A stretch of DNA of 37,428 nt from Vicinamibacteria bacterium. Its GTDB lineage: Bacteria > Acidobacteriota > Vicinamibacteria > Fen-336. A program made the position numbers and the translations under genes. Positions 4,632 through 16,350 of this stretch are shown piece after piece. Location: contig JAMPXO010000040.1 in the NCBI GenBank assembly GCA_023701125.1, positions 1 through 37,428 on the forward strand, in the 5' to 3' direction. The notes under the pieces were generated by a model. It saw only the letters and a list, made by a program, of their open reading frames with translations. It was not told the DNA's origin and did not search any database. Position 1 is the stretch's first letter. Each line of letters starts with the position of its first letter.

Positions 4632-5612
4632 TCAGTCCAGCGCGAACAGCAGCAGCAGCGTGCGCTGGAGCGGGTTGAAGTTGTCGTCGGAGAGCAGCAG
4701 CAGCAGCGTCTCGCCGCCCGGCCCGCGCAGCGCCTCGATCGCCTCGAAGTTGTCGACCGTGAGCGGCCTCTTCAACTCGGCCAGCAGCTCGCCCTCGAGC
4801 AACGCGCCGGGAGCGATCTGGGCGGCGCGGATGCGGCGCAGGCGCGCCGTGACGCCGGTCAGCGGCGAGTACGAGCGCTCGATCACCACCACGTCCCCGT
4901 CCGGCAGCAGCGCCGCCCCGGCGGGCCGCGGGTCGCCCTCGGCGCGGTAGCGCAGGGGCGCCCAGCCGTCCTTGTCCCACAGCCACGCGGCGAGCTGTCC
5001 CGAGGCCTCGAGCTCTTCCGTCAGCGCGAGCACGCGGCCGTCGGCCAGCGCCGTCATCGCCTCCAGCCCGCCGTTGCGCGGCGCGCCCTCGAGGCCGGGC
5101 GGCGTGGGCCACGCCTGCGCCGGCCCAGCGAGGCTCTCGTAACGCAGCACGCGATGGCGCTGCTCGAAGCCGACCAGCAGCGACCCGTCGGGCAGGCGCG
5201 CCATCGACTCGGCGTCCTGGTTGGCCTTGCCATCGAGCTCGTTGCCCACGGTGTCGAGCAGCATCCCCGAGGTCGCCTGCGCCCCGACGCCGACGAGGCG
5301 GCCGGACTCGATCCGCACACCGAACTCGAAGTGGGCGCCTTCGTCGCTCACCGCGCGCGCGGTGCTGCCGGTCAGTCGCACGTCCGAGAGCCCGCCGAAG
5401 CCCGGCTGCGGCGACGACAGGGCCAGGCCTCCGCGATACTCGAGGCGGCCGACGCGCACCTGCGCGGCATCGTCGGCGTTGAGCGGCACGGACACGGCCT
5501 CCAGCCGCGGCGCAGCGCCCGAAGCCGACCCCGCCCAGGCAGCGAGCGCGCCAGCGGCCAGCAGCGCCACGCTCCGTCGTCGGGTTCCGACGCCTCCCCC
5601 CCGTCCGTTCAT
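4632..5612 (-). CDS. Secreted esterase-like phytase-family protein (PF13449-like)
   Basis: A 326-residue exported protein. An Arg-rich N-terminus followed by a hydrophobic stretch ([23 protein letters not shown]) acts as signal peptide; the RRR could support Tat export, but the motif is not canonical. The mature part has the pattern of the esterase-like phytase family, a beta-propeller: [58 protein letters not shown], and a terminal [25 protein letters not shown] (split here from longer matches). Enzymatic activity is not established for most members. Its ATG (5612-5610) overlaps the stop codon of the upstream HEAT-repeat gene in an ATGA arrangement, so the two are probably translationally coupled. 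It converges on the phosphatase gene with a 16 bp gap. Confidence 0.8.
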
Positions 5613-7771
5613 CGGCCCCCGATCCTCTCCAATGCCACGGCGACGGCCGCGCGCACGGTGGCGTCGGCGTCCTTCTCCAGCTTGCGCACGTCTCCGGCCG
5701 CGGGCTGCGCTGCCGCTCCCGCCTCGCCCAGCGCCTCCACGGCCCGCCGTCGGGCGGCCACGTCGGCCTCCTTCAGCGCGGAGCGCAGCGGCCCGAGCCA
5801 CTGCGCCGGGGCCGCCCCGAGGCGGTTCAGCGTCGCCGCGGCCTCGACCCGGGCCAGCGCATCGCCGGGCAGGCGCGTCGCCTCGATCAGCTCGGGGAGC
5901 GCGCTGGCGGCCGACGGCCCGATCGCGCCGATCGCACGCGCGGCGACCGCGCGCAGCAACCCGTCGGCATCGTGCAACGCGGCGATCAGTTCAGGCAGGG
6001 CAGGACGGGCTGCGGCTCCGAGGCGCGCCAGTTGCGAGGCCGACTGGCGCCGCAAGGTAGCGGAACTCGATTGAAGGCCCATGCGCAGGGGCGTCAGGTC
6101 CAGCTCGGGCGACGCAGCCGCGGCCGGTGCGGGGGCCGACGCTGCCGGCACCACGGCCGGTGTCGGCGCGGGCGCGGCCGGCGTCGGCGTGGCTCGTGGC
6201 GTCGGCACAGGTGTCGGGGCGGGCGTCGGCGCGGGCGTGGGGGTCGAAACCGGGGTCGGAGCAGGCGTGGGCGTCGCGGTCGGGCGCGGCGTCGGAGTCG
6301 GTGTGGGCGCAGGAGTCGGAGTCGCCGTCGGCCGCGGAGTCGGCGTGGGCGCAGGAGTCGGTGTCGGTGTCGGCGTCGGTGCCGGCCGCGGAGTCGGCGT
6401 GGGCGTCGGCACCGGTGTGGGCGTGACCGTCGGCGTGGGCGTCGGCACCGGTGTCGGTGCAGGCGTCGGAGTGGGCGCGATCGGACGCGGCGAGGGCGTC
6501 GGCGCGACGGTCGGGCTCGGGCGCGGCGTGGGCGCGGACGTCGCCGCCGCCACCTGTGCCGACCGGGCGGGCTCGGCGGTCGTCGGCGCGCCCACCCGTT
6601 CGGCGGCCCAGGCCGCCACGATCCGCAGCCGGCTGTCGCCGCCTTCGATCAGCGGCGCCAGGCTGGGCGCGGCGCTCCGCGCCAGCGGCCCCGCCTCGCC
6701 GATCGCGCGCGCCGCTTCCAGCCGCGCCTGCGGGTCGGGGTCGGACAGCGCCGTCTCCAGCACCCGCACCGCGTCGGCCACGCTGAGCCCGCTGCGCAGC
6801 AGGGCGCGCGCCGCGATCCGCCGCACGGCGCGGTCCCCGTCGCGCAACGCGGCCCGCAGGTCCGGCTCCGCCTCGTGCACGGCCTCCGCCGGCAGCTCGA
6901 GGAAGGCCTGCGCCGCGCGGCGCCGGACCGTGCCGTCCGCGTCCGAGAGCGCCCGGCGCAGCACCGCCTCCGCGTCGACGTCCCCCAGCGAGACCAGCGC
7001 CGCGGCCGCTTCCACCTGCAGCAGGCCTTCGTCCTGACGCAGCGCCTCGCCCAGCACCCGCCGCGCACCGGACTCGGTCGGCGCCGCGGTGGGAACGGCC
7101 GCCCCGCCGGCAATCGCCTCGGGCGCGATCTCGCGCAGCGCCGCTTCGGCCCAGCCGCGCACGCTGAGATCCGGGTCGCCGAGCGCCTTGACGAGTGCCG
7201 GCACCGCGGCCGCGCTGGCCGGGCCGCCGCGCCCGAGGGCATTGGCCGCGTGGCCGCGCACGCTGGGGTCCGGGTCGGCCAGGGCGACGACGAGGTCGGC
7301 CGCGGGCGGCAGCGAGGCTGGCGGAACGCGGCCGAGCGAATACGCGGTGCGCCGCCGCACCTGGAGATCGGGGTCCTTGAGCCCGCCGACGAGCGCCGGG
7401 ACGATGCCCGCGGCGCCAGGCTGGATCCAGGCCAGGGCCAGCGCCGCCTCGACCCGCAGGAAGGAGTCGCGGCTGGCGAGCGCCTCGGCCAGGGCCCGCG
7501 CCGCGGGAGCCGCGGCAGGTCCGATCGCTCCCAGCGACCGGGCCGCGGCCAGGCGCACCATCGGATCGCGGTCGGACAACGCCTGACCGAGCGCGGTCAC
7601 CGCCCCCGCCGCATCCGCGCCCATCTCGCCCAACGCCTGGGCCGCCGCCGCGCGCTCGAACGGCTCGCGCGAGCGCAGGCGCTCCAGCTCCACGGCAAGG
7701 CGATCCTGGCCCTGGGCCCCCAGACCGAGGAGCCCAAGCGCGACGGCAGCGGCGCAGATGCGCAGTTTCAC
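5609..7771 (-). CDS. Exported HEAT-repeat protein with long Pro-Thr linker
   Basis: A 720-residue protein without a recognised enzymatic domain. The GTG at 7771 gives a clean signal peptide ([22 protein letters not shown]); the longer ATG-initiated form would bury it. Residues about 25-390 are many HEAT/PBS-lyase-like repeats (recurring units such as [28 protein letters not shown]). Residues about 410-540 form a Pro/Thr/Ala linker of repeated PTPTPAPT units. Residues about 548-720 return to HEAT repeats. HEAT solenoids bind other proteins or ligands, so a periplasmic scaffold is plausible but unproven. It overlaps the phytase-like gene downstream by 4 bp and is divergent from the GHKL-transglutaminase gene (62 bp between starts). 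Confidence 0.88.
6140..6540 (-). repeat. Degenerate 6-bp-unit repeat encoding the Pro-Thr linker
   Basis: In-frame repetition of ACGCCC/CCGACC-type hexamers on the coding (minus) strand, encoding about 130 residues dominated by [11 protein letters not shown]. Units are imperfect, with synonymous variation, which suggests an old or selected linker rather than a recent slippage expansion. Length variation between strains is likely. Confidence 0.85.
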
Positions 7772-7833
7772 GGGCGCGGGACCGTAGCACGCCCTCCCCG
7801 GCCCATTCAAGGAAGCCCGTAGACTCGGAGGCG

Positions 7834-10572
7834 ATGCTCGCGGCGGACCACGCCCGCTTCGTCGCCCGCGCCCGGCGCGAGGCCGCGCGTTACGGCAGCC
7901 GCCCGCTCGTCTTCCTGCGCGAGTTGGTGCAGAACGCCCGCGACGCCGGCGCCAGCCGTGTCGAGTTCGTGGTCGAGGAGCGTGGCGACGGCTGCCGCAT
8001 CCGCTGCCACGACGACGGCTGCGGGATGACGGCCGAGCACGCCCGCCAGTTCCTGTTCCGCCTCTACGCCTCGAGCAAGGGGCACGTCGGCGAAGCGGGG
8101 CGCTTCGGCGTCGGCTTCTGGTCGGTGCTGCGCTTCGAGCCCGAGCGGCTGGTGGTGCGCTCGCGACAGGCCGGTGCGGCGGCCTGGGGCGTCGACTTCG
8201 ACGGCGGCCTGACCTCGGTCACCACCTCTCCCCCGCCGGCCGACTTCGCGCCGGGCACCGAGGTGATGCTCGAGCGCGCGGCGCCGTGGCCCGATCTCGC
8301 GGCCGCGGTGCGCGCGGCGTTGCGCGAGCAGGTCCGCGACGTGCGCCGACGGGACCGGCCCGGCGAGCGGCTGTCGATACGGCTGGCGGGCGAGGAGCTC
8401 AACGCCCCGCTCGCGCTGGCGAACCCGAGCGCCTCGTTCGAGGCCGGAGCGGAACGCGGCGTCGTGGGGCTGGCCCCCGCGCCGCGGGTCGAGGTGTTCT
8501 CGCTCGGGCTCCGCGTGCGCGACGCGCAGACTCTCGACGAGTTGCTCGGCGGGCCCGCGGCTCGCGCCTGGTGCGCCGTGCCCGGCCTGGCTCCGGCGAT
8601 GGTGCTGGAGAGCGCGCGGGTCGCTCCGCTGCTGAGCCGTGCCGACCTGCGCGCGGACGCGGCGCTCCGGCGCCTCGAGCGCCGCGCGCGGGCAGCACTG
8701 CGCCGGCTGATGGACGCCGAGCTCGCGCGCCTCCACCCGCCCACGCTCGGCGAGCGCTTCTCGGGCGTCTTTCGCGCCTGGCCCGGGGTGACCGCGTTCC
8801 TGGCGACGCTGGTCCTCGGCCTCGGCGTGCTCGCCGCCGTGGTTGGCCCGCGGCGCGTCGCGTCGGAGGCGGCCACGAACTTCGGCCCGGCCGCGAGCGC
8901 AGCTCCTGCTCCGCCGCTGCGCGCGCCCGCGACTGCGGTCGGAGAGGTCCCGCTTTCGTCCGCGTTGGGTCTGACGCGAGAGCCCGGGGTCGGCGTGGTC
9001 CACGGCGACGAGCCCGCCATCGCCCTCCGCTTCACGCCGGTGGAGCGGTCGACGCTGCTGGCGCTGCGGCGCACGCCCGCCGCGGAGCTGAGGTCGGCCC
9101 CGGCGGCCACTCACGCCGACGCCGCTGCGCCGCGCGACGACCCCGGCCAGGTCGTCGAATGGCGGGTACGGGTCCGCGTCCGCGATGGCGGTGGCGCTGT
9201 GCCGCTGCCGACCGCGATCGGCACCGATGTCGCGCGCATCCGGCCGCAGCCCACGCGCTGGCTCGTGCGCGCCGGTGAACCTCCACACGCCGAGTTCGCT
9301 CCGGGCTTCGCGGGCTGGGTCGAGTACGAGCTGGTCGCAGGGGCCACCGACCCGCCGCCCGCAGCCGTGTCGCCGCGGCCACTGCCGCTGCCCGCGCGGC
9401 TGGCCGAGGCGGCCCGCGTCCTGCGCACGTTGCCCGTCGCCCGGCGCCCGGAGGCGGCGCTCGCGTTCGTGCAGGGAGCGCTGCGCGAGGCCCGCGATGC
9501 CGAGGCGATGCGCCGCTTCGCGAGCGCGCCCGGCGCCGACTTCGCGAGCCGGGCCCTCGCGGCCGGGGTCGGCGACTGCGACGTGCTCAACGGCGTGCTG
9601 GTGCTGCTGCTCGACGGCGCAGGGCTGCCGTCCCGACTGGCCGTGGGTGTGGTGGCCCGCGACGGACGCGCCGAGCCCGGCCTCCACGCGTGGGCCGAGA
9701 CCCACGACGGCGAGCGGTGGATCGCCCTGGACGCGACGCGGCCGGGTGCCGCGCCGGCAGCGGCGCCGGGCCTTCAGGCCGCCCCGCTCATCGCGGCACC
9801 TGCTCCAGTCGAGGTGGCTGTGGCCCGTCAGCCGCTCCCTCCCGGGGAAAGCGCCGGCGCGGATCGCGGCGGGTGGTTCGCGGCGATCGCCGGCGTGGCC
9901 GTTCTCGCGGCCGTCGTGCTCTGGCGGCGCCGCGAGCGCCGGGCGGCGGTCAGCCCCGGCGCGACATCGGTCGACGACCTGCTGCGCGGCGCCCTGCGCC
10001 ATCCGGAGGCCTTCAGCGGCGCGCCGGCCGTGTTCGATCGGCCGCTGCTCGCGCGCGCGGGCGGCGGCCACGTGTCGCTCGGCGAGGCCTGGCGGGAGGC
10101 GGCGACGGGGCGCTTGTACCGGGCCGGAGACGGCTCGCGAGCGCTGGTCCGCGAGGCCCGAGCCCGCCGCGGCGTCGTGCTCGACGACCGCTCCGCCACC
10201 GCGGCGACGGTCGCCGACGCGCTCGGCGCGCTCGACCTCGAGGCGTGGGACGAACGCTGGCGGGCGGCCGAAGCCCATCCCGTCCTGAAGCAGTTGGAGC
10301 AGGCCTGCGCTCGCCACGGCCTGCGCTTCGAGGCGCGGCTCGGCCCGGGGGCGCGAATCGAGGCGCTGCCGCTGGCGGCACGCGGCCCACGCCCGCGGCT
10401 GCTGATCGGTCGCGACAGCGGCCCGTGGCGCGCCTTCGCGTCGCTGCCGCCGGCGCGCGCGACGTTCGAGCTGGCGCGGGATGCCGTGCGTCCGCTCGTG
10501 GTGCCCGCGGCCCAGGCCGTGCCGGTGCTGCGCGTGCTGGCCCGGGCCGCATTGGCCGAGGGCGCGCGTTGA
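7834..10572 (+). CDS. Membrane protein with Hsp90-like GHKL ATPase and transglutaminase-like domains
   Basis: A 912-residue multidomain protein with no family I recognise as a whole. Residues 1-about 290 form a GHKL ATPase of the Hsp90/sacsin type: N-box [13 protein letters not shown] (general base E30, Mg-binding N34, D37), nucleotide box HDDGCGM (D60/D61, G62) and glycine box [13 protein letters not shown] (G89-G94). A first membrane span covers about 316-338. The region up to about 675 should be extracytoplasmic. It holds a transglutaminase-like core with an intact triad: C582 (GVGDCDVLN), H618 (GLHAWAE) and D633 (IALDAT). A second span covers about 680-702 ([18 protein letters not shown]), followed by Arg-rich RRRERR and a cytoplasmic tail of about 210 residues of unknown fold. 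The inferred role is ATP-dependent transmembrane control of a cysteine protease/transglutaminase-like activity. Its stop overlaps the start of the next gene. Confidence 0.88.
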
Positions 10573-11924
10573 ACGCCCCGCTCTTCGGCGTCGACGATGC
10601 CGCGGAGCTCCGCGCGCTGGCGGCGGCAGACGTGTCCGAGCCCGAGCAGGTGCCGGTCGAGTGCGTGCGGGCGCTCGCGGCGCTCGGCGCGACCCGGGTC
10701 GAGGTTCGCCTGGGCCGCCGCGGATTCCAGGTGGTCGCCCCGGGCGCTTCCCTGCCCGAGCCGCTGCGAGCCGCACTCGACACCGCGCTGGCGACGGCGG
10801 CCCCCGCGAGCGAACGAGCGCACGCGGTCGAGGAGATCGCCGCGGGGCCGGCCGCGTCGCTCGCGGTGCTGCTGCACCCCTCGGTGCAGGCCGTGCGCTG
10901 GACGCTCGCGCCGCCCGGTCTCGACGTGAGGCTCGCCACGCTGACACGCGAGTCCGCCCGCGAGCGGCTGCGGGCGGCCTGCCGCCACTCCCCGCGCCCG
11001 ATCCTCGTCGACGGCGCCTTGCAGACTCCGCGCCGGCCGCTGGACGAGTTCCCGTCGAGGGCATTGCCGGCGCCGGAGCGCGGGCGGCTGACCCTGCTCC
11101 CCGAGTCCGAGGCCGCGCGCGCGACCTTGCTCGTCCACGGCATCGTGCGCGCGGTCCGGCCGCTCCCCGCGCGGCTGCCGTTCGAAGTGGTGCTGGAGGT
11201 CGCCGGCACCGGCGGCGAAGCCCCGGACCCCGCGGCACTGCGCGATCACGCCGATGCGCGATCCGCCGCCTGGGACCAGCTCGCCGCGTCGCTGCTGATC
11301 GACGAGCTGCACCGGCCGCCAACGGACCCCGCCCGCGACGCCCTGCTGGCGGCCCTGTTCCTGCGCGGCGTCGAGGGCGGCCTGGCACCGCACGACTGGC
11401 GCCGCGTGCCGGCGCTGGTCGTGAACCACGACGGCCGGCGCGTGCGGGCCTCCGCGGACGAAGTCGAAGCCCTGGGCGCGGAGGCGGCGATTGCCGTGCT
11501 CGAACCCGGCGGGCGGCCGCGCGGCACGGTGCTGGAGGCGAGCGTGCCGGTGCGAGCCGCGCTGTCGCGGTTGCTCGGCCTGCGCTTCGAAGATGTCGCG
11601 CGACACGCGGAGCGCGCGCCGTGGCGCAGCCGGCTGCGCGCGGCCGTCGACGCGCTCTGGGCCCTCGCGGGGCGCGTGGCAGCGCGCACCCCGCTGCCCG
11701 CCCGCGCGCTGCTGCCGCAGGAGCGGGCGCTGCTCGCGGCGCTCCAGAAGGAGTGGCCGGCCTACCTGGTCGCCGGCCGCGGGCGCCCGCAGCGCACGCG
11801 GCGCGGCGTGGCGTTGCCCCGCGCCGCGGCCGACGTCGCGCTGGCGGCTCGCGGAGTTCAGCGCGATCCCGGGCTGCTCGCCGCCGCCGTGGCCCTGCTG
11901 CGGCCGCCGGCTCAGCGCGAGTAG
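10569..11924 (+). CDS. Degenerate GHKL-domain partner protein
   Basis: A 451-residue cytoplasmic protein without a recognised family. It starts at a TTG (10569) that overlaps the TGA of the previous gene, with GAGGG upstream, so coupled translation is likely. Its N-terminus aligns by eye with the preceding protein: ECVRALAALGATRVEV against [16 protein letters not shown], at nearly the same residue number (31 versus 30). The Glu is kept, but the Mg-binding Asn is Ala35, the following Asp is Ala38, and the DDG nucleotide box is replaced (VVAPGAS). It therefore looks like a pseudo-ATPase paralogue. Downstream segments such as WRRVPALVVNHDGRRVRASADEVEALG resemble the middle region of sacsin/Hsp90-like proteins, but only weakly. 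There are no membrane spans. The 3' end overlaps the convergent next gene by 13 bp. Confidence 0.78.
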   Translation: MNAPLFGVDDAAELRALAAADVSEPEQVPVECVRALAALGATRVEVRLGRRGFQVVAPGASLPEPLRAALDTALATAAPASERAHAVEEIAAGPAASLAVLLHPSVQAVRWTLAPPGLDVRLATLTRESARERLRAACRHSPRPILVDGALQTPRRPLDEFPSRALPAPERGRLTLLPESEAARATLLVHGIVRAVRPLPARLPFEVVLEVAGTGGEAPDPAALRDHADARSAAWDQLAASLLIDELHRPPTDPARDALLAALFLRGVEGGLAPHDWRRVPALVVNHDGRRVRASADEVEALGAEAAIAVLEPGGRPRGTVLEASVPVRAALSRLLGLRFEDVARHAERAPWRSRLRAAVDALWALAGRVAARTPLPARALLPQERALLAALQKEWPAYLVAGRGRPQRTRRGVALPRAAADVALAARGVQRDPGLLAAAVALLRPPAQRE

Positions 11925-12568
11925 TCGACCAACTCGCGGGGCAGACCGATGCCCGGCCGCAGGTCCGGTGCAGGGATCGGCGCGCCCGCCCGCAACGCGA
12001 GCGGGACGACGCCGGCCCAGCAATCGAGCGCGAGATCCTCCGGGTCGTCGCCCGGCGGGCCGCTGCGGACCTTGGCCGAGCCCTCGACGATCGGCAGCTC
12101 CAGCACCCGGGTGCCGAGCAGCTCCTTGGCGTTCGGCGGCCGCACCTGGGCGTAACGGCCGGGCGCGACGTGCTCGGTGATCGCCCGCAGCGCTTCCAGC
12201 TTGCGGTCGGCGTCGTCGACCGCGCGCAGCGTGCCGAGCAGCACGACCGAGCGGTAGTTCATGGAGTGGTGGAACGCCGAGCGCGCCATCACCAGGCCGT
12301 CGACCAGGGTCACGGTCACGCACGCCGGCACGCCGCCCTCGAGCGCGCGCAGCATGCGGCTGGCCGCCGAGCCGTGCACGTAGAGCGTCTCGCCGACCCG
12401 GGCGTGGATGGTCGGGATCACGAACGGCTGGCCCTCGTGGACGAAGCCCAGGTGGCACACCAGCGCCTCGTCGAGGATGGCCTCGATCGCCGCGCGATCG
12501 TGACTGCCGCGCGCCGGCAGGCGCTGCGCGGTGGTGCGCGGGGTGGGGACGAGGCCGGGGCTTGCCAT
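11912..12568 (-). CDS. Pyridoxamine 5'-phosphate oxidase-like flavin-binding protein
   Basis: A 218-residue cytosolic split-barrel protein of the Pyridox_ox_2 type. The segments HLGFVHEGQPFVIPTIHAR, ETLYVHGSAASRMLRAL, CVTVTLVDGLVMARSAFHHSMNYRS and VVLLGTLRAV are characteristic of the FMN-binding fold. The C-terminal AKVRSGPPGDDPEDLALDCWAGVVPL is a further signature of this subgroup. Its substrate is unknown; true PNP oxidase activity should not be assumed. Start ATG 12568 with SD AAGGAG. It is divergent from a MocR regulator with only 29 bp between start codons, a common arrangement that suggests control by that regulator. Confidence 0.9.
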   Translation of the reverse strand: MASPGLVPTPRTTAQRLPARGSHDRAAIEAILDEALVCHLGFVHEGQPFVIPTIHARVGETLYVHGSAASRMLRALEGGVPACVTVTLVDGLVMARSAFHHSMNYRSVVLLGTLRAVDDADRKLEALRAITEHVAPGRYAQVRPPNAKELLGTRVLELPIVEGSAKVRSGPPGDDPEDLALDCWAGVVPLALRAGAPIPAPDLRPGIGLPRELVDYSR

Positions 12569-12585
12569 CGGGGCTCCTTTTGTTA

Positions 12586-12615
12586 TAGAACGTACGTGTG
12601 TACGAACTAGAACGT
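12586..12615. promoter_or_regulatory. Direct-repeat operator candidate between mocR-like gene and PNPOx-like gene
   Basis: The octamer TAGAACGT occurs at 12586-12593 and again at 12608-12615, 22 bp apart (two helical turns). Between them lies a short inverted repeat CGTAC-GTGT-GTACG (12591-12604). The second copy is inside the regulator's first codons. On the minus strand TATAAC (12587-12582) could be the -10 box of the PNPOx-like gene. MocR proteins typically bind direct repeats in such divergent regions. That this regulator binds here is an inference. Confidence 0.5.
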
Positions 12616-13947
12616 TATCTGAAGGGCCAGGAGAGCGCAAGCGGCATCGCCGCCGCGGTCGAGGACCTGCTGCGGCGCGGGCGGCTGGCGCCCGGCGATC
12701 CGCTGCCGACCGTGCGGGCGCTGGCCGCCGCCCTGGAGCTGGCGCCGGCCACGGTCGCGGCCGCGTATCGCGAGCTGGGCCGGCGCGGGCTCGTCGCCGC
12801 GGCCGGCCGGCGCGGAACGCGGGTCGCGCCCCGCCCACCCGTCGCCACCGCGACCACGGGTGCTCTGCGCACGAACGACGTCGTGCCCGCCGGCCTGCTC
12901 GACCTCGCCTCCGGCAGCCCCGACGTCGCGCTGCTCCCCGACCTGGGGCCGTTCCTGCGCCGGCTGTCCGGCCGCGCCCGTTTGTACGGCGCGCCCACCG
13001 TGCTGCCCGCGCTGGGCGAGCTGGCCGCGGCCAGCCTGGCCCGCGACGGCGTGCCGGCCGCTGCGCTGACCGTCGTCGGCGGCGCCATGGACGGCGTCGA
13101 GCGCGCGCTGCTGGCCCACGCGCGGCCCGGCGACCGCGTCGCCGTCGAGGACCCCGGCTACCCCGGCGTACTCGACCTCGTCGGCGCGCTCGGCCTGGTC
13201 GCCGAGCCTTTCGAAGTGGACGACGAGGGCCCGCGGCCCGCCTCCCTCGCCGCCGCGCTCGACCGCCGCCCCGCCGCCTGCGTGCTGACGCCGCGCGCGC
13301 AGAACCCCACCGGCGCCGCGCTGACGGCGGCCCGCGCGCGCGAGCTGCGCCGGCTGTTCGCCGACCACGCCCAGGCCGAGTGCCTGGTGATCGAGGACGA
13401 TCACGCGGGCCCCGTCTGCGGGCGCGCCCTCCACCCCGTGGCGCCGGCCGCCGAGCGCTGGGCCCACGTGCGCTCGTTGTCGAAGTCGCTGGGTCCCGAC
13501 CTGCGGGTGGCGTTGATGGCCGGCGATGCGGCGACCATCGCGCGGGTGGAGGGTCGTCGCGACCTCGGCGCCGGCTGGGTCAGCCTGCTGCTCCAGGAGC
13601 TGGCCGCGCTGCTGCTCGCCGACGCCTCCGTGTCGCGGCGCCTGGACCGCGCGACGTCCGAGTACGCGGAGCGGCGGGCGGCGCTGGTCGCCGCCCTGGC
13701 CCGCCACGGCGTGGCGGCCCAGGCCGAGTCCGGCCTCAACGTCTGGGTGCCGACCGCCGAAGAAGCCGGCCCCGTGGCGACACTCGCCGCGCGCGGCTTC
13801 GCGGTGCGCGCGGGCGAGCGCTACCGCCTCCGCTCGCGGCCGGGGCTGCGGGTCACCGTCAGCCGCCTGCCGCTCGCGCAGGTCGCGCGCTTCGCAGGCG
13901 AGCTCGCCGCCGCGTTGCAGCCCGGCCGCGGACCGCGCGTGCCTTGA
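12598..13947 (+). CDS. MocR-family regulator (GntR winged helix fused to class I aminotransferase)
   Basis: A 449-residue transcription factor. Residues about 8-78 are a GntR winged helix (LLRRGRLAPGDPLPTVRALAAAL, TVAAAYRELGRRGLV). Residues about 100-440 are an aminotransferase fold used as PLP or amino-compound sensor. PLP-site features are kept: QNPTGAAL, the EDDHAG aspartate region and the Schiff-base lysine K296 in SLSKSLGPDLRVALM. Start GTG 12598, because the winged helix begins shortly after and the only room upstream is 29 bp; there is no clear SD, so the message may be leaderless. It probably controls the divergent PNPOx-like flavoprotein and itself. Confidence 0.92.
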   Translation: MYELERYLKGQESASGIAAAVEDLLRRGRLAPGDPLPTVRALAAALELAPATVAAAYRELGRRGLVAAAGRRGTRVAPRPPVATATTGALRTNDVVPAGLLDLASGSPDVALLPDLGPFLRRLSGRARLYGAPTVLPALGELAAASLARDGVPAAALTVVGGAMDGVERALLAHARPGDRVAVEDPGYPGVLDLVGALGLVAEPFEVDDEGPRPASLAAALDRRPAACVLTPRAQNPTGAALTAARARELRRLFADHAQAECLVIEDDHAGPVCGRALHPVAPAAERWAHVRSLSKSLGPDLRVALMAGDAATIARVEGRRDLGAGWVSLLLQELAALLLADASVSRRLDRATSEYAERRAALVAALARHGVAAQAESGLNVWVPTAEEAGPVATLAARGFAVRAGERYRLRSRPGLRVTVSRLPLAQVARFAGELAAALQPGRGPRVP

Positions 13948-14034: not shown

Positions 14035-16350
14035 ATGGCCACGCGCAGCGTCGCAGACGGCTCGTCGAAGGAGCTGTCCTACCGCAAGCGGCTGATCGAG
14101 ATCGCGAACCAGCTGAACTCGGCCGCGAGCATCCAGGACATCCTGGTCGACATCAAGGACAAGATCCTCGACCTGGTCGAAGCCGACCGCGTCACGATCT
14201 TCGCCCTCGACACCAAGAACCAGGAACTGTTCTCGCTGTTCAAGGCGGGCCAGGAGGTCAAGGAGATCCGCGTCGCCAAGACCTTCGGCTCGATCGCGGG
14301 CTTCACGGCGCTGTCGCGCAAGACGGTCAACATCCGCAACGCGTACGACCCGTCCGAGCTGACCCGGCTGCACCCGAACCTCAAGTTCGACTCGCGCTGG
14401 GACAAGTCCTCGGGCTTCCGCACCACCCAGGTGCTGGCGACCCCGATCCTGTTCGAGAAGTACCTGCTGGGCGTGCTGCAGCTGATCAACAAGCGCGGCG
14501 GCCAGGGCTTCACGCCGAAGGACGAGGAGGCCGCGGAAGAGCTGGCCAAGATCCTCGGCATCGCCTTCTACAACCAGCACCGCGCGGCGCGCTCGAACAA
14601 GCCGTCGAAGTACGGCTACCTCGTCGACAAGGGCATGGTCTCGGAGAAGGACGTCGAGGCCGCGATCACCAACGCCCGCGTCAACCAGGTCGACCCGGCC
14701 AAGATCCTGATGGAGGACCCGTTCAAGGTCCCCAAGGAGGAGATCGGCAAGGCGCTGTCGCAGTTCTACAACTGCGGCTTCTGGGACGGCACCGGCAAGG
14801 TGATCCCCGAGGAGCTCAAGGCGCGGCTGACCCCGGAGTTCCTGAAGAAGAACTCGTGCGTGCCGATCGAGAAGCGCGAGGGCACGCTGTTCGTCGCGGT
14901 CGAGGACCCGTACGACCTGACCCGCCTCGACGCCATCAAGGCGATGAACCTGGCGCCACGGCACGACTTCCTGGTCGCGCTGCGGATGGACATCGTGGAG
15001 TGCATCCAGGGCACGTACAACGCCGGCGGCTCGGCCCCGATCGCGGAAGAGGCGGACCTCGGCCGCATCATCATGGAGCTCGGCTCCGGCGACGAAGACG
15101 ACATGGAGGGCGGCGAGGAGAAGAGCGCCGAGCCCGAGATCGACGAGACCGACTCCGGCATCGTCAAGCTCGCCAACCAGATCATCATCGACGCGTACAA
15201 CAAGAACGCGTCGGATATCCACATCGAGCCCTACGGCAAGCAGTCCCCCACCATCGTCCGGCTGCGCGTGGACGGCGACTGCCAGAAGTACCTGGAAGTG
15301 CCGGCGCCCCACCGCAACGCGCTGGTGCAGCGCTTCAAGATCATGTCGAAGCTCGACATCGCCGAGAAGCGCAAGCCGCAGGACGGCAAGATCCGCTTCA
15401 AGGGCCCGATGGGCGTGATCGAGCTCCGCGTCGCCACCATCCCGACGTCCGGCAACAACGAAGACATCGTGATGCGCATCCTGGCGGCGTCGAAGCCGCT
15501 GCCGCTGGACAAGATGGGCTTCTCCGAGCGCAACCTGACGGAGTTCAAGAAGATCCTCGAGAAGCCGTACGGCGTCTGTCTCGTCGTGGGCCCGACCGGT
15601 TCCGGCAAGACCACCACGCTGCACTCGGGGGTCGGCTTCATCAACACCGTCGACATGAAGATCTGGACCGCCGAGGACCCGGTCGAAATCACGCAGGCCG
15701 GCCTGCGCCAGGTCCAGGTGCACCCCAAGATCGGGTTCACCTTCGCCGTGGCCATGAAGGCCTTCCTGCGCGCCGACCCCGACGTCATCCTGGTCGGCGA
15801 AATGCGCGACCACGAAACGGCCGCGACGGGCATCGAGGCGTCGCTGACCGGCCACATGGTGCTGTCGACGCTGCACACGAACTCGGCGCCGGAGACGATC
15901 ACCCGCCTGCTGGACATGGACATCGACCCGCTGAACTTCGCCGACGCGCTGCTCGGGATCATGGCCCAGCGCCTGGTCCGCACCCTCTGCAAGGACTGCA
16001 AGGAAGCCTACAACCCGACCCAGGAAGAGATCACCGAGATGCGCGACGCCTACGGCCACGAGCTGTGGGACGAGCGGGTCAAGGTGCAGTGGACGCCCGA
16101 CATGCAGATGTACCGGGCCAAGGGCTGTCCGAAGTGCAGCAACAGCGGCTTCAAGGGCCGGATGGGCATCCACGAGCTGCTGATCGCGACCGACGAGATG
16201 AAGCGGATGATCCAGCGCCGCGAGACGGTCGAGAAGATGCGCGTCCAGGCGATCAAGGACGGCATGACCACGCTGCTGCAGGACGGCCTCGAGAAGGTTC
16301 TGCTGGGCAAGTCGGACTTCAAGTCGGTGCGGGCGGTCTGCATCAAGTAG
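14035..16350 (+). CDS. GspE/PilB-type secretion ATPase with N-terminal GAF domain
   Basis: A 771-residue cytoplasmic hexameric ATPase for type IV pilus or type II secretion assembly. Residues about 20-180 form a GAF domain (GSIAGFTALSRKTVNI, FRTTQVLATPILFEKYLLGVLQLINK). About 195-330 is an MshEN/T2SSE_N-like domain, and a Glu/Asp-rich linker follows. The motor domain has Walker A GPTGSGKT (519-526), Walker B DPDVILVGE (E589), the His box HMVLSTLHTNSA and a zinc tetracysteine (C652, C655, C698, C701). Start ATG 14035 follows GAAGAGGAGG. Codon choice is unusually uniform (AAG, GAG, CTG), suggesting strong expression. It stands alone: no pilin, GspF or GspL genes adjoin it, though a secretin lies 9 kb away. 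The GAF domain suggests control by a small ligand. Confidence 0.93.
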   Translation: MATRSVADGSSKELSYRKRLIEIANQLNSAASIQDILVDIKDKILDLVEADRVTIFALDTKNQELFSLFKAGQEVKEIRVAKTFGSIAGFTALSRKTVNIRNAYDPSELTRLHPNLKFDSRWDKSSGFRTTQVLATPILFEKYLLGVLQLINKRGGQGFTPKDEEAAEELAKILGIAFYNQHRAARSNKPSKYGYLVDKGMVSEKDVEAAITNARVNQVDPAKILMEDPFKVPKEEIGKALSQFYNCGFWDGTGKVIPEELKARLTPEFLKKNSCVPIEKREGTLFVAVEDPYDLTRLDAIKAMNLAPRHDFLVALRMDIVECIQGTYNAGGSAPIAEEADLGRIIMELGSGDEDDMEGGEEKSAEPEIDETDSGIVKLANQIIIDAYNKNASDIHIEPYGKQSPTIVRLRVDGDCQKYLEVPAPHRNALVQRFKIMSKLDIAEKRKPQDGKIRFKGPMGVIELRVATIPTSGNNEDIVMRILAASKPLPLDKMGFSERNLTEFKKILEKPYGVCLVVGPTGSGKTTTLHSGVGFINTVDMKIWTAEDPVEITQAGLRQVQVHPKIGFTFAVAMKAFLRADPDVILVGEMRDHETAATGIEASLTGHMVLSTLHTNSAPETITRLLDMDIDPLNFADALLGIMAQRLVRTLCKDCKEAYNPTQEEITEMRDAYGHELWDERVKVQWTPDMQMYRAKGCPKCSNSGFKGRMGIHELLIATDEMKRMIQRRETVEKMRVQAIKDGMTTLLQDGLEKVLLGKSDFKSVRAVCIK

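Follow-up and report, generated by a model that had tools for sequence, protein, structure and literature searches.

The periplasm, to our knowledge, has no supply of ATP, so how a cell powers or gates the enzymes of its envelope from the inside is a general question. The question is raised by a pair of overlapping genes in a stretch of 37,428 nucleotides from a Vicinamibacteria bacterium of the phylum Acidobacteriota (assembly GCA_023701125.1, contig JAMPXO010000040.1), referred to here as the window. The first open reading frame (ORF1; 7834..10572) encodes 912 amino acids, in which a GHKL ATPase domain and a transducer are followed by a transmembrane (TM) helix, a predicted periplasmic transglutaminase, a second TM helix, and a C-terminal cytoplasmic part. 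The second (ORF2; 10569..11924) encodes a predicted soluble pseudo-ATPase of 451 amino acids that is paralogous, throughout its length, to the Hsp90-like parts of ORF1. Both genes, and all of their features given below, lie on the forward strand. They share the four bases TTGA (10569..10572), which hold the TTG start codon of ORF2 and the stop codon of ORF1, and an overlap of this NTGA type is common to 30 of the 39 ORF1-ORF2 pairs aligned here (the window plus 38 loci).

Why an ATPase tied to an envelope enzyme should be encoded in overlap with a paralogue lacking its catalytic residues is the question that this locus poses. We lean towards a membrane-bound Hsp90-like heteromer, in which a cytoplasmic ATPase cycle, shaped by the pseudo-ATPase subunit, would control the periplasmic transglutaminase.

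ORF2 is a paralogue of ORF1 with a degenerate ATP site

Searched alone against Pfam, NCBIfam, PADLOC, and PDB sequences, ORF2 returned nothing significant; its relationship to ORF1 emerges only with profiles and structure. Comparison of the two profiles with hhalign gave an E-value of 3.4e-12 over 192 columns. The N-terminal parts match each other at E 1.6e-14 (best of 20 column shuffles, 0.049), and the C-terminal part of ORF2 matches the part of ORF1 after the transglutaminase at E 8.7e-7 (best of 20 column shuffles, 0.41), whereas mismatched pairs of parts gave E-values of 0.16-0.5. Because both halves match, ORF2 corresponds to ORF1 minus its TM-transglutaminase-TM segment. Chance similarity was rejected, the shuffled controls being far weaker. 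The initial annotation had called ORF2 a pseudo-ATPase paralogue of ORF1 from its N-terminus only; the paralogy holds there, but it also spans the C-terminal part.

The degenerate GHKL domain of ORF2 (residues 10-125; 10596..10943), delimited by profile alignment and an AlphaFold 2 (AF2) model, contains a remnant of the N-box, ECVRALAALGA (E31-A41; 10659-10691), aligned to residues 30-40 of ORF1. The profile alignment pairs Glu31 with Glu30, as the initial annotation had proposed, and bears out the replacements that it had noted: in the window, Ala35 stands at the position of the Mg-binding Asn34 of ORF1 and Ala38 at that of Asp37. In a set of 52 ORF2 rows (the 39 aligned rows and 13 further loci), Asn occupies the Mg-binding position in 0/52 and Asp the N-box Asp position in 0/52, and the same is true within the first 39 alone (0/39 for each). 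The N-box positions hold varied residues without a replacement motif, and Glu31 is retained in 38/52.

The DDG box was likewise said to be lost. This is true of the window, where Asp60-Asp61-Gly62 of ORF1 aligns with Ala57-Pro58-Gly59 in the remnant APGASL (10737-10754), but not as a general rule, since the Gly of this G1 box is present in 48/52 rows and DDG- or DNG-like remnants persist, for example in L025, L130, and L131. In five ORF2 relatives (L025, at 11805-13379 of its own stretch, L126, L130, L131, and L135) a DDG/DNGxG-like G1 box is retained and the N-box Asn is gone; such relatives may record which part of the ATP site disappeared first. The ORF2 profile also matches MutL (E 9.4e-4). 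Taken together, these alignments show that ORF2 is homologous to the GHKL domain and lacks the residues that bind Mg and ATP.

ORF2 also shows conservation of its own, with Asp9 in 39/39 rows, Arg83 in 38/39, and the Ala86 and Glu91 positions each in 36/39 (the window has Ala at the latter). ORF2 is therefore under constraint, though not as an ATPase. The most conserved stretch of the protein is the LLxIDVxAE region, which includes Asp9, at the N-terminus just before the helix of the pseudo-GHKL domain. This region could be a cross-subunit strap. In 2/39 rows of ORF2, a hydrophobic helix in the pseudo-GHKL domain gave a weak TM candidate; otherwise no TM helix was found.

ORF1 joins a GHKL ATPase to a TgpA-like transglutaminase

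The GHKL domain of ORF1 (residues 1-166; 7834..8331), which resembles the N-domain of Hsp90, is matched by Pfam HATPase_c_3 (1.2e-8) and by the HtpG profile (E 1.9e-18), and all GHKL motifs are present: the N-box (7921-7953), DDGxGM (8011-8028), and GRFGVG (8098-8115). One of the 39 rows is truncated at the N-box; in the 38 rows that cover the motif, Glu30, Gln33, Asn34, Asp37, Asp60, Gly62, and Gly64 are found in 38/38, and Gly89, Gly92, and Gly94 in 39/39. Judged from these residues, the GHKL ATPase of ORF1 is intact. The Sacsin domain PF25794 also matches 38/39 rows at E <=0.1. The transducer (residues 175-302; 8356..8739), placed by alignment of the AF2 model to TRAP1 and Hsp90, corresponds to the large part of the Hsp90 middle domain and contains an invariant arginine, Arg269 (8638-8640; 39/39). 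A weak alignment puts this residue at the arginine of the Hsp90 middle domain that we take to act in the catalytic loop. The C-terminal cytoplasmic part (residues 713-912; 9970..10569) is homologous to that of ORF2 and aligns, in the AF2 model, to the small part of the Hsp90 middle domain.

Between these cytoplasmic parts lies a periplasmic beta and transglutaminase region (residues 370-640; 8941..9753). Pfam Transglut_core matches it at 5.4e-9 in the window and is found in 39/39 rows. Profile positions 373-660 match residues 28-319 of PDB 6g49 (E 8.8e-11), a bacterial protein-glutamine gamma-glutamyltransferase that is the periplasmic domain of TgpA from Pseudomonas aeruginosa. Cys582 (9577-9579), His618 (9685-9687), and Asp633 (9730-9732) are each present in 39/39 rows, so the catalytic triad is intact. 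The region is flanked by TM helix 1 (residues 319-337; 8788..8844) and TM helix 2 (residues 679-697; 9868..9924), assigned by hydropathy and positive-inside counts, the latter followed by an Arg-rich cytoplasmic side. Both helices were found in 32/39 rows and a single one in the remaining seven; in L022, L023, and L061 the segment taken as TM helix 2 falls inside the transglutaminase domain. Counts of Lys and Arg place both protein ends inside in 31 of the 32 rows with two helices. A periplasmic transglutaminase held between two TM helices, with both ends of the protein in the cytoplasm, is thus supported.

The two genes are inherited together

Found by sequence alone, ORF2 is confined to the genus of the window (3/60 relatives, its own genome included). 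Full-length ORF1 occurs in 4/14 genomes of the window's own family, including one of another genus (G006), in which the gene downstream of ORF1 is a diverged ORF2 (26% identity) with VDDGHGM present and the N-box Asn absent. A scan of the genomes of 84,980 species with the ORF1 alignment gave 48 loci, distributed over Acidobacteriota (Vicinamibacteria, Thermoanaerobaculales, and Holophagae) and Myxococcota (Nannocystis, Enhygromyxa, Plesiocystis, and Polyangia), some of them labelled only Deltaproteobacteria, proteobacterium, or bacterium. ORF2 lies directly downstream in 39/39 loci with a complete ORF1 end, assigned at 38 of them by the ORF2 profile (E <1e-3) and at L035 by position and alignment. 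In the other nine of the 48 (L034, L038, L040, L054, L055, L057, L060, L063, and L068), ORF1 runs off the contig, and these were excluded. Also excluded from the final alignments was L066 (Nannocystis pusilla Na p29), in which the ORF1 frame is broken near the N-terminus and the ORF2 start is unclear. The frame is intact in five other Nannocystis records, and the break could be a sequencing error.

Among 347 Acidobacteriota genomes drawn evenly and searched at E <=1e-20, the ORF2 profile matched 13 and the ORF1 profile the identical 13; because these genomes are related, they do not amount to 13 independent events. In each of the 13 (G407 and 12 others), reading of the DNA showed the two genes side by side. 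Eleven further Acidobacteriota genomes gave weaker matches to the ORF2 profile (E >1e-5), in which the GHKL part makes up most of the alignment; these are taken to be other GHKL proteins. In nine pairs of sequences, the ratio of nonsynonymous to synonymous substitution rates (dN/dS; Nei-Gojobori) was 0.15-0.47 for ORF2 and 0.15-0.50 for ORF1. These values indicate that ORF2 is under purifying selection, and the distribution indicates that the two genes are inherited together across two phyla. The co-occurrence of both genes among relatives, which had been proposed as a check on the pairing, is thus found in loci and genomes alike.

Predicted structures resemble Hsp90

The AF2 model of ORF2, with a predicted local distance difference test (pLDDT) score of 88.3, has TRAP1 and Hsp90 as its top Foldseek matches (E 1.2e-9), and VIA aligned it to Hsp90/TRAP1 with Z 14.1 over 320 residues at 6.0 Å. 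For ORF1 (pLDDT 83.0), VIA gave Z 20.2 against TRAP1, with 357 residues aligned at 6.0 Å. The Hsp90 family (HtpG, TRAP1, and Hsp90) thus provides the best fold matches of both models. The check by structural similarity that had been put forward is passed, in that the two models match the same folds and the two profiles are homologous. The ORF1 alignment pairs model residues 3-807 with residues 89-555 of the TRAP1 chain. The membrane segment and the transglutaminase fall within this range, and we therefore read the part of ORF1 after TM helix 2 as continuing the Hsp90 middle domain. In ORF2, a transducer-like domain (residues 127-250; 10947..11318), recognized by pLDDT and fold match, is followed by the C-terminal part (residues 254-451; 11328..11921), placed by hhalign to ORF1 and by a fold match to Hsp90.

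The models support an arrangement of Hsp90 N and middle domains in both proteins, predicted to be uninterrupted in ORF2. They likewise support an Hsp90-like middle domain in ORF1 that is interrupted, at the end of its first part, by a TM hairpin carrying the TgpA-like domain to the periplasm. Canonical HtpG, defined by PF00183, was found neither in the window's genome nor in 13 other genomes of its family. It is present in 12/60 genomes of the class sample.

A proposed machine and its alternatives

GHKL and Hsp90 proteins work as dimers. In the heteromer to which we lean, the Hsp90-like cytoplasmic halves of ORF1 and ORF2 would dimerise and bind one ATP, on ORF1. Opening and closing of this asymmetric clamp would move the two TM helices, and their movement would switch or load the periplasmic transglutaminase, which could then crosslink, deamidate, or cleave a substrate in the cell envelope. 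ORF2 would serve as an obligate allosteric partner and as a cytoplasmic sensor or client-binding arm. In its most specific form, the proposal is an obligate Hsp90-type heterodimer of an ATPase and a pseudo-ATPase that spans the inner membrane and whose clamp cycle drives or gates a TgpA-like periplasmic transglutaminase, an undescribed ATP-powered machine for protein modification. This form is held tentatively and falls somewhat short of an even chance.

Several points weigh against this account. MORC2 comes near Hsp90 as a match for the ORF1 model (Z 17.7, 275 aligned). Full-length alignments of ORF2 to Hsp90 have a root-mean-square deviation of ~19 Å, which makes the placement of its C-terminal domain uncertain. 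The C-terminal parts give a collinear but weak profile match to the C-terminal half of Hsp90 (E 0.007 and 0.017, below 20/20 shuffles), and superposition there is poor. The Pfam family HSP90 (PF00183) matched 0/39 ORF1 rows and 0/39 ORF2 rows at E 0.1. Because of this weak support in the C-terminal half and the absence of a PF00183 match, we term the proteins Hsp90-like rather than members of Hsp90. The alignment of Arg269 with the SRE of HtpG, in the loop of the catalytic arginine, has an E-value of 0.022, which 1/20 shuffles equalled. Finally, heterodimerisation, the role of ORF2 as regulator, and the substrate and function of the pair are inferred.

The main rival, which we think rather unlikely, holds that ORF1 forms a homodimeric clamp, to which, or to whose substrate, ORF2 attaches only at times as a separate adaptor, co-chaperone, or inhibitor. 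Known Hsp90 and GHKL proteins are mostly homodimers, every catalytic residue is present in ORF1 alone, and ORF2 is soluble by prediction, the two rows with a weak TM candidate aside. However, ORF2 is never missing, either from the loci with a complete ORF1 end or from the 13 genomes, and it has kept the paralogous scaffold entire in both its N- and C-terminal parts; a protein that acted only as an occasional adaptor would have no need of it.

A role in anti-phage defence or another conflict, with the GHKL-like part as damage sensor and the transglutaminase as envelope effector, has a distinctly smaller probability. Defence proteins can contain GHKL domains, the pair is patchy in Acidobacteriota (13 of the 347 genomes, with full-length ORF1 in four of the 14 of the window's family), and the GHKL N-terminal motif of ORF1 resembles those of the PADLOC defence ATPases TmtA and MzaB, with matches to the N-box region at 3e-11 and 1e-4, respectively. 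These matches, however, span only ~95 residues of large models (1486 positions in TmtA), and PADLOC gave no match to ORF2. Moreover, no defence gene was recognized among the six neighbours scanned, and at E 1e-10 plasmids held no match to the window ORF1 and phages none to the Plesiocystis ORF1.

It is highly improbable that ORF2 still has some other mode of nucleotide binding and works as an ATPase, whether active or signalling: the G1 Gly is widespread and some relatives retain DNGxGM, but the N-box Asn and Asp are absent from all 52 rows and no motif replaces them. A decaying duplicate without function is scarcely credible, since ORF2, for all its divergence (17-30% identity of most relatives to the window), has dN/dS values equal to those of ORF1, which refute a pseudogene, and an open frame in each of the 39 aligned rows, window included, from two phyla.

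Relation to known systems

The pair differs from Hsp90 in the absence of a PF00183 match, and in that ORF1 carries an inserted membrane hairpin with a transglutaminase and has a dedicated, co-encoded pseudo-ATPase partner. With TgpA (P. aeruginosa PA2873; PDB 6g49), ORF1 shares the whole periplasmic beta and transglutaminase region and the Cys-His-Asp triad. TgpA is described as an inner-membrane protein with six TM helices; its periplasmic part (180-544) shows a transglutaminase activity that does not depend on Ca, and its gene appears to be essential (PMC3507681). ORF1, unlike TgpA, has two TM helices only and an Hsp90-like cytoplasmic part. The multi-TM domain of TgpA, DUF3488 (PF11992), was not found in ORF1 at E 1 and is not among the families listed for the 39 rows. 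In its operon, tgpA is accompanied by genes for a MoxR AAA+ ATPase and a DUF58 protein; the place of these two would be taken here by the Hsp90-like pair. The combination of GHKL domain and transducer is common to ORF1, ORF2, and the Sacsin-type, MORC, and MutL proteins. Unlike these proteins, the pair shows no DNA-related, DnaJ, or HEPN domains, and ORF1 has its membrane-anchored transglutaminase.

No description of a pair of this type was found in the open-licence PMC literature. Its parts are of known kinds; the combination, an envelope transglutaminase linked to an ATPase that is itself an Hsp90-like pair, was not found in that literature. There is a substantial chance that the pair is a new kind of machine.

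Genomic neighbourhood

Comparison of ORFs of at least 90 codons within the DNA stretches around the loci revealed no third conserved neighbour, only lineage-specific synteny (mainly in Nannocystis) and generic families. In the window, a gene for a HEAT-repeat protein (5612-7810, reverse strand) lies just upstream of ORF1; it has eight HEAT_2 stretches, with a long Pro/Thr-rich linker separating two repeat blocks. Downstream, a pyridoxamine-oxidase-like gene (11915-12838, reverse strand) converges on the end of ORF2, the frames overlapping by ~10 bases, and adjoins a gene for a GntR-aminotransferase regulator (12598-13944, forward strand). Further on, an ATPase of type IV pilus or type II secretion systems (14035-16347, forward strand) carries a GAF domain at its N-terminus, ahead of MshEN and T2SSE, an order that suggests a ligand-sensing pilus motor.

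Implications

If the proposed heteromer is correct, the pair would be a bacterial case of Hsp90-type asymmetry fixed by evolution. Alongside the tgpA operon, it would also be another way to place an envelope transglutaminase under ATP-linked control. Because Nannocystis, Plesiocystis, and Enhygromyxa are cultured carriers, the pair is open to testing.

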